Assembly: GCF_001428105.1 (NCBI RefSeq)
Contig: NZ_LMSJ01000059.1
Coordinates: 72,011-136,010, forward strand
DNA from: Paenibacillus sp. Soil766
GTDB lineage: Bacteria > Bacillota > Bacilli > Paenibacillales > NBRC-103111
Direction of reading: 5' to 3'
Length of the DNA stretch: 64,000 nt
How positions within the stretch are numbered: position 1 is the first letter of the stretch; each line of letters starts with the position of its first letter. The position numbers and the translations under genes are program-made. The notes below the pieces were generated by a model. The model saw nothing but the letters and a program-made list of their open reading frames with translations. It made no database searches and was not told the DNA's origin. This document shows positions 19,343-25,070 of the stretch, in pieces.

Positions 19343-21172
19343 CTACGCCTTGCGATCGTCCCCATACCACAGCTCACGGAACGTGGAGCTGTGTCGCAGT
19401 AGTTCCTCCGATGTGCCTTCCGCTTCAATGCGGCCATCTTTCATCACGATGATGTGGTCGGCACGCGTCAACGCGGTTTTGCGGTGCGAGACGACCAGAC
19501 ACGTCGCATCACTGCGGCGCTGGAACATCCGCTCCCAAAGTTTCTGCTCTGTCTCGACGTCAAGCGCGCTCGACAGGTCGTCGAAGACGTACAGCTCGGC
19601 GTCTCGCACGAGCATTCGTGCCGCGGCCGTCCGCTGCGCTTGACCGCCGGAGAGCTTCACCCCACGCGGGCCGATGACGGTGTCCAGCCCGCCAGGCAGC
19701 TGCGCGACGTCGAACTCGAGCACCGCCGCGTTCAAAGCCTGGGGTAAGCTGTCACCTTGCTCCGCTTGCCCGAGCAAAATATTATTGCGCAGCGTATCGC
19801 TGTATAACCGCGGCACCTGCGCGGTATATGCGCTCTGCGGCGGTGTAAAGAAGGTGCCCGGATCCTCAACGGGCACACCATTCCACGCGATCGTTCCACT
19901 CTCCTTGGGCAACAGCCCAAGAAGGGAACGAACCAGCGTGGTTTTGCCAGAGCCAATCGTTCCCGTGATGACGGTGAACGATCCTCTTTGCATGGCGAAG
20001 TGAATGTCAGCGATACCTCTACCCGTATCTGGGTAGGTATAGCTGAGCCCATTCACTTCCATGCGCTGCAGCGGAGGTGCAACGACGCTGTCATTCTCTT
20101 GATCTTGAACCTGATCTTGATCTTGATCCTGATCTCGTTTTACCATCGCAACAGAAGAATCAACCTTCCCTACCCGCTCCTTCTTCAAATACAACGGCTT
20201 CACCATCGTCAACACCCTCGCCGAAGCTCCTTGCAACAAGAAGGTCAATCGCTCAAGTGAAACACTCATTTGCTTAAAATAAGTGATAAACTTCCCAACA
20301 TTCGTAATAAACTGCGTCACGAAGGTCAAATAGTACACGAACAAGGCGAGGTCACCGACAGTGAACGTCCCTGCTCTCATTTTCGTTCCCGCCAAAAGAA
20401 GCAATAATCCCGTCCCCAAATTCACGGAATTTGAGAAAACGGAGTCTAGCAATTCGCTCATCAGTCGATCTTTAAGCATCGCCTTGCGACGCTGATCACC
20501 GAAGCTGTGGAACCGCTCCATGACTCTCTTCTCGGCGCCAGCCACTTGAATGGCCTGCACATTACCGAACATCTCGCTGATCTCTCCCGTCACCTTAGAG
20601 GTGGATTCCCTACTCGCGGCACGATATTTCTGCAAACGAACAGTTGCGAGTTGTGCCGCTGAAATCACGATGACGATTGGCATAAACACGAGAAGTGTCA
20701 TTTGCGCATCAATACGAATCAATATGTAACCTGAAACGAGTGCAAAACACGTCATCCCAAACACATCTACTGACCAGCTCGCTGCTTCCTCGGATTGATC
20801 CACGTCATCGCGGAAGTGACTGATCGCTTCGCCTGGTGATACAGGAATCGCTTGTGCACCCGGCTGCTTGAGAACATGTTCTAGTAAATTGCGACGAAGC
20901 AGCATCCCCATTCGGAAACGGAAGTGCACATCCGTAATGAACCCAATGATGATCAATAGGATTCGTCCCAGTGCTGCCCCAATTAACAAAGCGATCAAAC
21001 CCCATACTCCGAATTTCAAGGTAGCATTCCCCGTTAACGTGTCGAAAAATGCTTTTGTAATTAGCCCAGGTGCAATTGGAGCCAAATAAATAATTGTCCA
21101 TGCGAGCGCATTAACGAAATATCGGAAAGGTTTATACATGATAAGCCCTTTTAAATACTGAAACGTTGTCAT
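19343..21172 (-). CDS. ABC exporter half-transporter with degenerate catalytic site
   Basis: The 609-residue protein has an N-terminal six-helix exporter domain (about 10-310) and a C-terminal ATPase domain (about 370-600). Walker A is GTIGSGKTTL, the signature is canonical (LSGGQAQRT), and Walker B is VFDDLSSALD. The second D stands where the catalytic Glu belongs, so this NBD forms the non-hydrolysing site. The H-loop is VVSHRKTA. Between the domains is a run of Asp-Gln pairs (about 340-353) coded by CTTGAT-type hexamers at 20098-20141. The start overlaps the upstream half-transporter stop by 4 bp (ATGA). The partner subunit carries the matching degenerate signature. The substrate (drug, lipid or peptide) is unknown. 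Confidence 0.9.
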   Translation of the reverse strand: MTTFQYLKGLIMYKPFRYFVNALAWTIIYLAPIAPGLITKAFFDTLTGNATLKFGVWGLIALLIGAALGRILLIIIGFITDVHFRFRMGMLLRRNLLEHVLKQPGAQAIPVSPGEAISHFRDDVDQSEEAASWSVDVFGMTCFALVSGYILIRIDAQMTLLVFMPIVIVISAAQLATVRLQKYRAASRESTSKVTGEISEMFGNVQAIQVAGAEKRVMERFHSFGDQRRKAMLKDRLMSELLDSVFSNSVNLGTGLLLLLAGTKMRAGTFTVGDLALFVYYLTFVTQFITNVGKFITYFKQMSVSLERLTFLLQGASARVLTMVKPLYLKKERVGKVDSSVAMVKRDQDQDQDQVQDQENDSVVAPPLQRMEVNGLSYTYPDTGRGIADIHFAMQRGSFTVITGTIGSGKTTLVRSLLGLLPKESGTIAWNGVPVEDPGTFFTPPQSAYTAQVPRLYSDTLRNNILLGQAEQGDSLPQALNAAVLEFDVAQLPGGLDTVIGPRGVKLSGGQAQRTAAARMLVRDAELYVFDDLSSALDVETEQKLWERMFQRRSDATCLVVSHRKTALTRADHIIVMKDGRIEAEGTSEELLRHSSTFRELWYGDDRKA

Positions 21173-22932
21173 GCCAACACCTCCTCTAACCCTGTCGCGA
21201 GCAATTGGCTAAAGCGGGAATTCGGGTCGGCGGCAAGTACTTCTCTACGGCCTGATTCCAGCACACGCCCGCCATCCAAAATAACGATATAATCAGCACG
21301 CTGTACAGTAGCAAGTCGATGGGCAATCATGATACAGGAGCGCTCAGTTAACAATTTGGAAACGGCTTTCTCCATACGCTGCTCTGTCAAAGGATCCAGA
21401 CGCGATGAAGCTTCATCCATAATAACCAATCCCGGATTCGTCAAGAATACGCGTGCAAAAGCCAACAACTGCGCCTCTCCAGCAGATAAGCTGCTTCCCC
21501 CCGATGCAAGCACCGTATCCAAACCATCTGGCATCGCTTCATACCAAGCGCCTAGTCCAAGTTCATAAAGTACGGCAATAATCTGATCATCCCGAATGGA
21601 CACATCATAAAAGGTTAAATTATCACGAATCGTCCCTTGAATGATTTCAATATTTTGTGTTACTAGCGCGACACGCTTCCGAAGCTCAGCTAGTTTACAA
21701 TTCCGAATGTCAATACCACTAAGTGCAATCACACCTTTTTGCGGATCATAAAATCGCAGTAATAACCTCGCAATCGTAGACTTCCCGCTCCCTGTTCGAC
21801 CAAGCAATCCTAGCACCTCACCAGGCTTCAAGTTCATCGTCAGGTGATCAATCGTCGGCTGATCGTCGTCATAACTGAATACAACATCCTTGAAATCAAC
21901 GCCAAGGGGTCCATCTGGAATCCTAGCCCCAGGTCCATCTTGGATCTTCGACTTAATCGCGAATAGTTCTCGAATGCGAGAAATACTTGCGTCTGCTTTT
22001 TGCAAATCTTCCATTTGCGTCCGAATCTTCTCGATTGGTTTAGCGAGTAATTCCGTGTAGAAGAAAATTAAATATACGGTACCCAAGGAAATATGATTGC
22101 CATGCCATAAATAGGCGCTAATCCCGAACGCCATCGCATTCCCCAATGCGAAAACGAAGATCGACATGTTCCACATCGCACAAAAGCCGAGGAACGCTTT
22201 GACGCGTAATGGCAACATTTTTCGAAGCATCGTATAGAAACGATTCATCACGAAGCTTACTGCACCGTTGGCGCGAATATCCTCTGTCCCCTCCAAATGC
22301 TCCCCGATAAACCCATAAAACTCAGCATTCGCCTGCCGCCACCCTGCCCAAACGGGTACAGCAAATTGACGAATCCACCCAATCATGTAAATCGCACAAA
22401 CAACGAAAACAGCCATCCCAGCACCAATTACCCAATTTTCCCGGAATAAGAGGACGAGAATCCCCGCCATGAGCAGCACATTCCCAAACAAATGAATGAT
22501 CATACTGGAGAAGAAATTCGCAAGCGCATTCACATCCCCATCCACACGCTCAATTAGCGAGCCAGATGTATGACTTTTATGAAAAGACATATCCAACGAC
22601 AGACAATGCGAGGCTAAATCAACGCGCAGCTTATTGGTTGTTTTCCAACCGACATTTTCACTAAAATAAGTCGCGATCACAGATACTAGCTGCTGAACCA
22701 GTGCAAATCCAATAAACAGAAGCGCCGCTGTAAAAAGTGGCTGCATCGCCCCTTGTGATTGCGCGGTATCAATAAAATAGCGGATGATTTGCGGATTAAT
22801 CAGTTGCAGCCCGATGGAAGCGAACAACAGGAGTGTTAATCCAATCAACGTCCCCTTCTGAGGAAACAAATAACGGCCTAACAGCTCGCGATATTGCCCC
22901 ATGGAGTTGCTGTTTTTTCGGTTTTTCTTCAT
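21169..22932 (-). CDS. ABC exporter half-transporter, partner with degenerate signature
   Basis: The protein has 587 residues from the ATG at 22932 (MKKNRKNSNSMGQYRE), with GGAGG 11 nt upstream. A GTG at 22968 in frame would add 12 residues but has no proper ribosome binding site. The exporter TM domain covers about 20-310. The NBD has Walker A LLGRTGSGKSTI, Walker B LVIMDEASSRLD with the catalytic Glu, and IAHRLATV. Its signature is LSAGEAQLLA instead of LSGGQ. This change pairs with the D-type Walker B of the 19343 protein to form one degenerate site, the arrangement of heterodimeric exporters such as BmrCD and TM287/288. Two-gene operon. Confidence 0.9.
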   Translation of the reverse strand: MKKNRKNSNSMGQYRELLGRYLFPQKGTLIGLTLLLFASIGLQLINPQIIRYFIDTAQSQGAMQPLFTAALLFIGFALVQQLVSVIATYFSENVGWKTTNKLRVDLASHCLSLDMSFHKSHTSGSLIERVDGDVNALANFFSSMIIHLFGNVLLMAGILVLLFRENWVIGAGMAVFVVCAIYMIGWIRQFAVPVWAGWRQANAEFYGFIGEHLEGTEDIRANGAVSFVMNRFYTMLRKMLPLRVKAFLGFCAMWNMSIFVFALGNAMAFGISAYLWHGNHISLGTVYLIFFYTELLAKPIEKIRTQMEDLQKADASISRIRELFAIKSKIQDGPGARIPDGPLGVDFKDVVFSYDDDQPTIDHLTMNLKPGEVLGLLGRTGSGKSTIARLLLRFYDPQKGVIALSGIDIRNCKLAELRKRVALVTQNIEIIQGTIRDNLTFYDVSIRDDQIIAVLYELGLGAWYEAMPDGLDTVLASGGSSLSAGEAQLLAFARVFLTNPGLVIMDEASSRLDPLTEQRMEKAVSKLLTERSCIMIAHRLATVQRADYIVILDGGRVLESGRREVLAADPNSRFSQLLATGLEEVLA

Positions 22933-23020
22933 TGTTATGGAGTCCTCCGTATTCCTCTCGACGTACACTCCATCATACTAAATTGGCTCCTTCTCGACAA
23001 CGGACTCTTTGGCTAAAATG

Positions 23021-23043
23021 AAAAAAGCCGCCGAGTCGGCGGT
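23021..23043 (-). terminator. Terminator-like hairpin upstream of the ABC operon
   Basis: On the minus strand CCGCCGACTCGGCGG (23042-23028) is a perfect 6-bp stem with a 3-nt loop, followed by CTTTTTTC. It would stop transcripts that run from the semialdehyde dehydrogenase gene through the repeat array. Confidence 0.8.
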
Positions 23044-23084: not shown

Positions 23085-23604
23085 CTGTAACGTTGTTTTT
23101 CACTCTTACAGCATGGAATTCCACCAGCCGGAGCTTATTCTCCCGCTATAACGTTGTTTTTCATCACTAAACCCCTCGAAATCGAGCCGGGGATGATTTT
23201 TCTCGAGCTATAGTGATGTTTTTCATCACTAAACCCCTCGAAATCGAGCCGGGGATGATTTTTCTTGAGCTATAGTGATGTTTTACATCACTTAAACTCT
23301 CGAAATCAGGCCGGGGATGGTTTTTCTTGAGCTATAGTGATGTTTTACATCACTATACCTCTCGAAATCAGGCCGGGTACGATTTTTCTCAAGCCATAGT
23401 GATGTTTTTCATCACTTAAACTCTCGAAATCGAGCCGGGGATGGTTTTTCTTGAGCTATAGTGATGTTTTTCATCACTAAACCTCTCGAAATCGAGCCGG
23501 GGATGGTTTTTCTCGAGCTATAGTGATGTTTTTCATCACTAAACCCCTCGAAATCGAGCCGGGGATGATTTTTCTCGAGCTATAGTGATGTTTTTCATCA
23601 CTAC
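23085..23604. repeat. 62-bp tandem repeat array with internal hairpins
   Basis: Seven full units of exactly 62 bp start at 23146, 23208, 23270, 23332, 23394, 23456 and 23518. A partial eighth starts at 23580 and a diverged copy lies at 23085-23145. Each unit begins CTATAGTGATG; AGTGATG-TTTTT-CATCACT forms a 7-bp hairpin and CTCG-AAAT-CGAG a second. Units differ by a few bases. The loop varies (TTTTT or TTTTA) while the first stem is kept in all but the first full unit. The array fills almost all of the gap between the semialdehyde dehydrogenase and the ABC exporter. There are no unique spacers, so it is not a CRISPR. I find no open frame along it. Confidence 0.92.
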
Positions 23605-23621
23605 AGAGCCATCACCCACAC

Positions 23622-25070
23622 TCAAAAATACCGCGATGTAATCATCTTCTTTTTCGTATAAAATTCAACGCCATCTTTCCCGTTGGCATGCAAATCGCCG
23701 TAGAAGGAATCCTTCCAACCGGAGAAAGGGAAAAAAGCCATCGGCGCTGGCACCCCAACGTTGACGCCGAGCATTCCCGCTTCGACTTCTTCGCGGAATT
23801 GGCGCACAGCCTTCGCATTCTCGGTGTAAATCACCGCTGAGTTCCCGAAGCTGGATTGATTCACTAACGCCAACGCGCTAGTCAAATCCGCTGCGCGGAA
23901 TAACGACAAGACAGGCCCGAATATCTCCTCTCTCGCAATGGTCATCTCCGGCTTGACATGATCGAATATCGTGGCTCCGAGGAAAAACCCTTCCCCCGCA
24001 CACGCCTCCCCCATTCTACCATCGATCAGCAGATGAGCCCCTTCTGCGATCCCTTTCTCGATGTAGCTCGCAATCCGTATGAGCTGCTCATCTCGGATAA
24101 CTGGAGTCAGTGTGACCTGCTCCTCCATCCCGCTACCAAGCACCATCTGAGCGGCAGCTTCCTTCAACCCGTCAATAAACGTATCCCCTTCGCCTACTAC
24201 AACAACGGCAGAACATGCCATACAGCGTTGGCCAGCTGAACCGAACGAAGACATGACAATATTCTCGACCGTTTTCTCCATATGTGCATCGGGCATAACG
24301 ATGTGATAGTTTTTGGCGCCTGCTAGGGCTTGCACCCTTTTACCAGCAGCAGATGCGCGTTCATACACATACTTAGCCACTGGCTGTGAGCCTACAAAGG
24401 ATACCGCTTTGACAGAAGGTGCAGACGTCAGTGCATTAACCACGTCGTGTGAACCATGGACGACATTCAGCACACCATTAGGAAGTCCAGCTTCTTGCAT
24501 CAATGCGGCTAATTTCATAGCTGTCAATGGCGTGCGTTCGGATGGCTTCAAAACGAAAGTATTCCCAAGCGCAATCGCGAGCGGAAACATCCAGCACGGC
24601 ACCATCATCGGGAAGTTAAAAGGAGTGATACCTCCGACTACGCCTAGGGGCACCCGAAATAATTCAGAATCCATTTCTGCAGAAATATTTGCGAGTGTCG
24701 TGCCCATCATGTGGGACGGTGCACCTGCTGCAAATTCTACACACTCCATGCCGCGCAGCACTTCACCAAGTGCTTCTTTGTAGCTTTTCCCGTTCTCTCG
24801 CGTAATCAATTCAGCAAGTTCATGCTCATGAGCTTGAAGCAGCTGCCAATAATGAAACAATACGCGCGCACGTTTAGGAACAGGCGTTCTACTCCATGAT
24901 TCATACGCATCTTGAGCTGCAGACACAGCTTGCTCTACATCACTAGTACTTGATAATGGCACTCGCGCAATCACTTTTCCTGTTGCAGGATTGATGACAT
25001 CACTCATCACTCCACTTGTTGCGTCTACCCAAACGCCATTAATTAGATTTTGCAGCTCTGTCATCGCCAT
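23622..25070 (-). CDS. mmsA: CoA-acylating (methyl)malonate-semialdehyde dehydrogenase
   Basis: This 482-residue aldehyde dehydrogenase converts malonate or methylmalonate semialdehyde, CoA and NAD to acetyl- or propionyl-CoA and CO2. ALDH motifs are TPFNFPMMVPCWMFPLA (about 150), KPSERTP, FVGSQPVAKYVYERASAAGK and the catalytic Cys in SAGQRCMACSAVVVV (about 283). EEIFGPVLSLF follows. GQRCMA and the lack of the usual general-base Glu are typical of MMSDH. Two close in-frame ATG codons exist; I keep the first. It is divergent from pucR and would catalyse the last step of beta-alanine or 3-aminoisobutyrate breakdown for this cluster; iolA is the equivalent inositol-pathway name. Confidence 0.9.
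   Translation of the reverse strand: MAMTELQNLINGVWVDATSGVMSDVINPATGKVIARVPLSSTSDVEQAVSAAQDAYESWSRTPVPKRARVLFHYWQLLQAHEHELAELITRENGKSYKEALGEVLRGMECVEFAAGAPSHMMGTTLANISAEMDSELFRVPLGVVGGITPFNFPMMVPCWMFPLAIALGNTFVLKPSERTPLTAMKLAALMQEAGLPNGVLNVVHGSHDVVNALTSAPSVKAVSFVGSQPVAKYVYERASAAGKRVQALAGAKNYHIVMPDAHMEKTVENIVMSSFGSAGQRCMACSAVVVVGEGDTFIDGLKEAAAQMVLGSGMEEQVTLTPVIRDEQLIRIASYIEKGIAEGAHLLIDGRMGEACAGEGFFLGATIFDHVKPEMTIAREEIFGPVLSLFRAADLTSALALVNQSSFGNSAVIYTENAKAVRQFREEVEAGMLGVNVGVPAPMAFFPFSGWKDSFYGDLHANGKDGVEFYTKKKMITSRYF

Follow-up and report, generated by a model that had tools for sequence, protein, structure and literature searches.

The intergenic DNA downstream of mmsA in Paenibacillus sp. Soil766 carries a tandem array of short palindromes, for which the original prediction had offered three possible natures: a structured RNA, a protein-binding array or a minisatellite. 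The question was which of these the array is. The whole stretch of DNA analysed, here termed the window, comprised 64,000 nucleotides; genomes and loci are cited by their labels (G and L) only where needed. Tandem Repeats Finder reported a period of 62 at 23155-23603 with 7.2 copies, 91% matches, 0% indels and a score of 730. Nine palindrome positions were found (one degenerate, one half-degenerate and seven intact; Table 1). The distance between the first two was 61 bp and then 62 bp seven times, so that the predicted strict 62-bp period without indels held for all steps except the first. The AGTGATG-T5-CATCACT hairpin was indeed kept in all full units but the first, with A as the last loop base in two units. 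A second hairpin, CTCG-AAAT-CGAG, had been ascribed to each unit; it was intact in five of seven units and read CTCGAAATCAGG in the other two. It was not common to the other arrays of this genome and was rejected as a general feature.

Table 1. Features of the palindrome array and its surroundings in the window.
Feature	Position	Strand	Remarks
Degenerate terminal palindrome TAACGTTG-TTTTT-CACTCTTA	23088..23108 (start ~23088)	none	61 bp to next; sequence reading
Half-degenerate palindrome, left arm TAACGTTG, right arm CATCACTA	23149..23169	none	sequence reading
Seven intact palindromes TAGTGATG-TTTT(T/A)-CATCACT(A/T)	23211..23603		starts 23211, 23273, 23335, 23397, 23459, 23521, 23583
Seven array-specific spacers, 41 bp each, separating 21-bp palindromes	23170..23582		pairwise divergence 0.111 per site
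Terminator-like hairpin and T tail	23028..23042	minus	downstream of mmsA and array
mmsA, CoA-acylating methylmalonate-semialdehyde dehydrogenase	23622..25070	minus	NCBIfam TIGR01722, 610 bits vs cut-off 448.5
ABC transporter permease/ATP-binding protein	21169..22968	minus	MsbA-like models, below their equivalog cut-offs; start from longest ORF, approximate

The stop codon of mmsA abuts the array, and the minus-strand terminator-like site (23042-23028) places the array between this codon and the site. The ABC transporter gene lies on the other side of the site, with the array upstream of it. At the far end of the array, where a terminator had been predicted, one such minus-strand site was found against 0.8 expected by chance in shuffles. 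No ORF of at least 70 aa overlapped the array. RNA folding of 87 nt, as the original prediction had proposed, gave z values of -4.9 and -4.3 on the two strands, far beyond shuffles, as is to be expected of any palindrome.

The Soil766 genome (8.26 Mb) was searched with the window array, which yielded 22 matches including the window's own. The palindrome with up to two mismatches occurred 101 times and the reversed control pattern 0 times. Approximately 12 arrays of 4 to 18 palindromes each were recognised, together with one fragment (L015), and their common palindrome was TAGTGATG-T5-CATCACTA. The base step was 62 bp in ten of the 12 arrays, 52 bp in L011 and alternately 51 and 62 bp in L190. 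Three arrays (L014, L017 and L191) combined repeated inner steps of 62 bp with steps of 51 bp at one end; by eye, the shorter step of L191 resembled an 11-bp deletion within the 62-bp unit. Spacers were alike within an array and different from array to array. Identical arrays scattered at random, named beforehand as an observation that would refute the prediction, were not seen, since palindrome and spacing were common and spacers differed. Half of the 12 arrays (L010, L014, L017, L190, L191 and L192) touch an ORF of 72-128 aa, taken as spurious. The neighbouring genes comprised mmsA, sdhB, catalase, GerA-type, GH35, LacI- and AraC-type regulators, purN/purH, a MarR-like regulator, a lactonase, leuA, an MFS efflux gene, ilvA, an MCP gene and rtcB, several of these names resting on matches below equivalog cut-offs. 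No functional theme was found among the named neighbours, and a few neighbours matched nothing.

Several of these loci showed features of their own. At L016:1880-2205 (G000:C22, ~65880-66205), a second array with the palindrome CTGTAAGCGTG-TTTTT-CGCCGTTACAG and a period of 61 adjoins the TAGTGATG array, and two palindrome subfamilies are therefore present at one locus. The array on the catalase side (L010:1-98) stops at a contig end in other DNA that looked insertion-sequence-like by eye, and a unit like that of L010 continues at the end of another contig (L015:1-180); an insertion has probably divided one original array into L010 and L015. Upstream of leuA stand two T-box leaders in tandem, with the palindrome array between leaders and gene (L017:1743-2317), and the orthologues of this site carry arrays in Paenibacillus sp. 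Root444D2 (L255) and in G025 (L271). In the same array, one palindrome has its T5 centre inverted to A5 with the spacer orientation unchanged (L017:1385-1654), the rest of the array being uniform. Near the sdhB array, a Guanidine-I riboswitch lies in front of an NMT1-like gene (L009:937-1045).

The distance between neighbouring palindromes fell into two classes. In the fetched loci, 500 of 512 neighbours up to 80 bp apart were spaced 50-52 or 61-63 bp after four duplicate records (L207, L075, L072 and L094) had been dropped (512 of 525 before dropping), and no excess was seen at 41, 72 or 83 bp. For 10.2 to 10.84 bp per turn, distances of 51 and 62 bp lie 0 to 23 degrees apart round the helix. 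The two classes are compatible with helical phasing rather than proof of it, and the helical period is weakly constrained because it was fitted to two points.

Conservation within arrays was compared for arms, centres and spacers in the 27 array classes that had three or more units. Mean pairwise divergence per site was lowest in the arms (0.011), intermediate in the centre (0.033) and highest in the spacers (0.103), an approximately nine-fold lower divergence of arms than of spacers. The arms were less divergent in 24 of the 27 classes, tied in two and more divergent in one, L010 (0.100 vs 0.073), where a 2-bp insertion in one unit accounted for the excess. A parallel computation, which agreed with this one, excluded 8 of 218 neighbour distances as unusually long or short; a unit with a broken centre was the cause of two of these (120 and 123 bp). 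An array was present at the orthologous site of another species for ten of the 12 own arrays (91 loci compared), seven matching with both flanks and three (L010, L013 and L192) with one flank; for L009 and L011 no orthologous array was found among these loci. In 17 orthologous unit pairs, the arms were identical at 12 of 12 positions in every pair, the unit length was 61-63 bp, and relative to the spacer the T-rich strand of the centre lay the same way round in all 17. The spacers of these pairs were 41-86% identical, some without detectable homology, against 46% (sd 6, 359 pairs) between non-orthologous spacers. The palindromes are hence conserved beyond what recent duplication gives, which answers a question raised by the original prediction, and selection seems to act on the distance as well as on the site.

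The family extends beyond this genome. Of 60 genomes searched, 8 contained exact AGTGATGTTTTTCATCACT, Soil766 among them; all 8 belong to one genus. The array pattern was found in 34 stretches across GTDB genomes, 24 of them in P. oryzisoli, P. plantarum, Paenibacillus sp. Soil750 and Root444D2 and P. eucommiae; the other ten, single matches in unrelated MAGs, were taken as chance. A generalised palindrome, TANNGATG-W5-CATCNNTA (W = A or T), was present in 23 of 104 family genomes, 18 of 30 within the genus and 5 of 74 outside it (5 of 22 genera), and its control gave 0 save one match in one genome. The search of whole genome and relatives that had been advised for the unit thus revealed a family of arrays. 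Full palindromes numbered 0 to 1,129 per genome, with 90 in Soil766; the highest count was that of G077, whose match places were the same as in P. eucommiae G060. A 400-kb sample of P. eucommiae contained dispersed elements of four palindromes spaced 51-62-51, and this tetrad with unrelated spacers was also present in further members of the genus and, beyond it, in other genera. Longer arrays alternated 51 and 62. A common solo site was not seen in a non-exhaustive view of the low-copy genomes, whose loci were viewed for spacing only. An approximately 300-bp dispersed stretch with a large inverted repeat, often beside the four-palindrome element, was observed in P. eucommiae (L154:1226-1551).

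The mmsA site itself was surveyed in 20 genomes with a close mmsA, reading ~700 bp beside the gene end in each. Arrays were present in two (Soil766 and Soil750, the latter with three units at 61 bp). Among the other 18, P. plantarum had a single intact 27-bp palindrome, G027 a decayed palindrome, G006 a remnant, and 15 had none. At the same intergenic site, within ~700 bp of the mmsA match, G024 (L178) carried an unrelated tandem repeat of ~50 bp, as seen by eye.

The outer bases of the palindrome differed between lineages and were rather uniform within some of them. T5 cores, found without regard to the half-site, extended to AGT/ACT in 85 of 88 cases in Soil766 and in 102 of 106 in P. oryzisoli; the corresponding counts were 14/21 in Soil750, 10/27 in P. 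plantarum, 1/94 in Root444D2, 1/34 in G025, 1/20 in G004 and 0/30 in G016. The half-sites of Root444D2 were mixed (TAAC 37%, TAAG 23% and TAGC 19% of 288) and those of P. eucommiae mostly TAAC (73% of 162), separate shares for the Soil766 and P. oryzisoli arrays being biased, as these loci were found with the AGT half-site. Three related genomes have other half-sites at purN-purH, and their short spacers shared 60-73% identity with the one of Soil766 (null 48%, sd 6). The retained spacer homology indicated that the half-sites had changed in place, at this one locus only; two other shared loci had no spacer homology left to distant species. Uniform half-sites in a genome would be expected from one factor reading all sites, and also if a mobilising enzyme had spread a single variant of the palindrome.

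Among the three natures first proposed, a protein-binding array fits these observations best, short of proof. We take the arrays for BIME/BOX-like repeats that would be recognised in trans; the sites recognised would most likely be duplex DNA in helical phase. We give this reading, phased arrays of duplex sites for one putative trans-acting factor, the best odds, a probability of roughly 0.4 and thus under one half. According to it, the window array would be one member of a genome-wide family, and a dyad-symmetric site of 21-27 bp (half-site TA(A/G)NGATG, A/T-rich 5-bp centre) would be read by the factor, most likely a dimeric DNA-binding protein. Spacings of 51 or 62 bp would give neighbouring sites almost equal helical angles; dimers bound to them would then face one way and could bind cooperatively along the array. 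Whole units may be gained or lost by unequal recombination or slippage, which would homogenise the spacers within an array, and the preference of the factor would keep the palindromes alike over all arrays of one genome. Protein reader, duplex recognition, cooperativity and amplification route are what we infer from the pattern; chromosome architecture or a 3' boundary are guesses at the cellular role.

Duplex recognition is suggested by the fixed helical distances, the lack of a strong bias for the transcribed strand, the varied A/T centres and the weak folding of spacers. In co-directional loci, 138 units had T5 and 100 units A5 on the sense strand, and T5 was sense in seven own arrays and antisense in five. 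The centres varied among A/T words in other species. Folding of the spacers, with strands set by the T5 side, hardly exceeded that of mononucleotide shuffles (mean z -0.56 and -0.36), and the spacer as a structured RNA was dismissed. The duplex reading is weakened by the T-rich strand kept in 17 of 17 orthologous pairs, which a symmetric duplex site does not demand; common descent or a directional A-tract could also have kept it. Covariation between the arms of a palindrome was 0.699 vs 0.650 in shuffles (0 of 2000 reaching it, z 3.7), above shuffles as would also be predicted for a hairpin; it fits the duplex, single-strand and RNA readings alike. Pairing of arms across the short spacer had a raw match of 0.760, but a z of 2.0 with 73 of 2000 shuffles reaching it, and was rejected. 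The shuffle tests make no correction for common descent, and loci from different species are partly of one origin.

A possible alternative, given somewhat lower odds, is that the arrays are selfish repeats of the REP/BIME kind. Intergenic palindromic repeats of bacteria are usually explained by transposases, and here a transposase or nuclease would act on the palindrome as a single-stranded hairpin, and the spacing would reflect the geometry of this enzyme and not a host function; the enzyme would disperse the elements and amplify the units, for example by rolling-circle copying. The patchy copy number among genomes, the many dispersed copies of one four-palindrome element in P. eucommiae, and the single and decayed palindromes at the mmsA site of relatives are in line with this, as is the T5 side on one strand in all orthologous pairs, which a strand-specific hairpin would want. 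PF01797 (Y1/RAYT) gave one partial match above cut-off in P. eucommiae G060, and a match in G002, which is without a full palindrome; the remaining eight of the ten genomes searched, Soil766 (G000) and seven others (G022, G012, G001, G003, G005, G061 and G063, G061 being the same strain as G001), had no match, which speaks against mobilisation by RAYT in this genome. Nor was a mobile vehicle found: the AGTGATG array pattern was absent from viral contigs and the window array had no match in plasmids or phages, these two patterns being the ones that the searches covered among the palindrome variants. Moreover, palindromes are still intact in old arrays at orthologous sites, whereas decay would be expected of idle selfish copies. 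A MITE would have terminal inverted repeats and a target-site duplication; inverted symmetry was not found in the four-palindrome element, the short spacers of 18 such elements showing no resemblance when one was inverted against the other (mean z 0.22, vs 3.95 for direct comparison).

A further alternative, of somewhat lower odds again, is that the array acts as a structured RNA in a 3' untranslated region (of mmsA in the window) whose hairpins stabilise, process or terminate the transcript or bind an RNA-binding protein. The place of the array between stop codon and terminator-like site and the strong folding, found on both strands, agree with such a role. Divergent gene pairs rarely host arrays: directions, taken as longest-ORF calls, could be given for 62 of 80 loci, of which 36 were co-directional, 19 convergent and seven divergent. 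Pairing in RNA is further hinted at by mismatched arm pairs on the sense strand, which were G.T in 18 and A.C in six loci (p 0.02; 36 loci, L242 left out and L017 added by hand), with no such bias across the short spacer (11 vs 8). Against this role stand the occurrence of both T5 and A5 loops on the sense strand, the spacers that fold little by themselves, and the fixed distances of 51 and 62 bp, for which an RNA offers no obvious reason. Furthermore, no Rfam family matched an array at gathering score in 13 loci and 7 P. eucommiae loci, weak sub-threshold miRNA matches being the only ones to touch arrays. An ordinary minisatellite, slippage at a chance palindrome with no function or recogniser, would account for the homogeneity within arrays and the change of copy number between species, but is very improbable because palindrome and spacing are common to ~12 arrays of one genome while spacers are not, and it is contradicted by recurrence across species and genera and by the conservation of the arms.

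The arrays were compared with known repeat systems. With their short palindromic repeats recurring regularly every 60 bp or so, CRISPR arrays resemble the present ones; unlike in CRISPR, spacers here are ~90% alike within an array (divergence ~0.10 per site) and hence not independently acquired, and CRISPR was rejected. The REP/BIME elements of proteobacteria, as described in PMC2817692, are likewise high-copy intergenic palindromes in regular clusters. The arrays differ from them in the 5-bp A/T centre and in two fixed spacer lengths despite unrelated spacer sequences, inter-REP segments of Stenotrophomonas varying substantially in length according to that source, and also in that no RAYT gene was found in the own genome. 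Proteins cited there as binding REP/BIME are IHF, DNA gyrase and DNA polymerase I (PMC2817692). BOX of Streptococcus pneumoniae (PMC3049150) is a dispersed repeat of composite build, in which the inner modules stand in tandem and vary in number, a layout resembled by L014, L017 and L191 with their 51-bp end steps and inner 62-bp repeats. BOX modules (boxA-boxB(n)-boxC) are conserved in sequence, whereas here only palindromes and distances are kept and non-orthologous spacers stand at a null-like identity of 0.46 (sd 0.06). In PMC3733652, stem lengths of 8-9 bp and loop lengths of 4-5 bp are given for the CGTC class of palindromic repeats, sizes like those of the present palindrome. Unlike in GTAG and CGTC repeats, neither tag constantly stood beside the palindromes in the units inspected by eye. 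The arrays would function most like BIMEs and BOX elements (PMC2817692, PMC3049150), and depart from what defines both because no Y1 transposase was found, GTAG is not constant and the modules are not conserved in sequence. A text search of the literature found the literal palindrome letters in no paper, and the titles and abstract starts of the matches listed included no paper on such repeats in Paenibacillus. Neither Paenibacillus nor Firmicutes is named in the main text of PMC3733652 by term search, and 'Paenibacillus' does not occur in the main text of PMC12306157. As far as these searches show, the arrays are intergenic palindromic repeats of a form not described in the literature searched.

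Such arrays are at risk of being mis-called as CRISPR or as minisatellites for strain typing. They constitute a natural experiment, in which arrays number in the dozens, many of the spacers are unrelated, two distances are permitted and half-sites are lineage-specific. A bolder form of the duplex-site reading, which we consider somewhat unlikely, is an undescribed architectural system of the Paenibacillaceae, in which a dedicated dimer would hold to the site and the 51/62-bp distances while the sequence between them is replaced. If this were true, tens to hundreds of intergenic arrays would form a chromosome-wide scaffold, the site sequence co-evolving with the protein in each lineage. If the reader were identified, it would become clear whether a host can use REP-like arrays as architecture.
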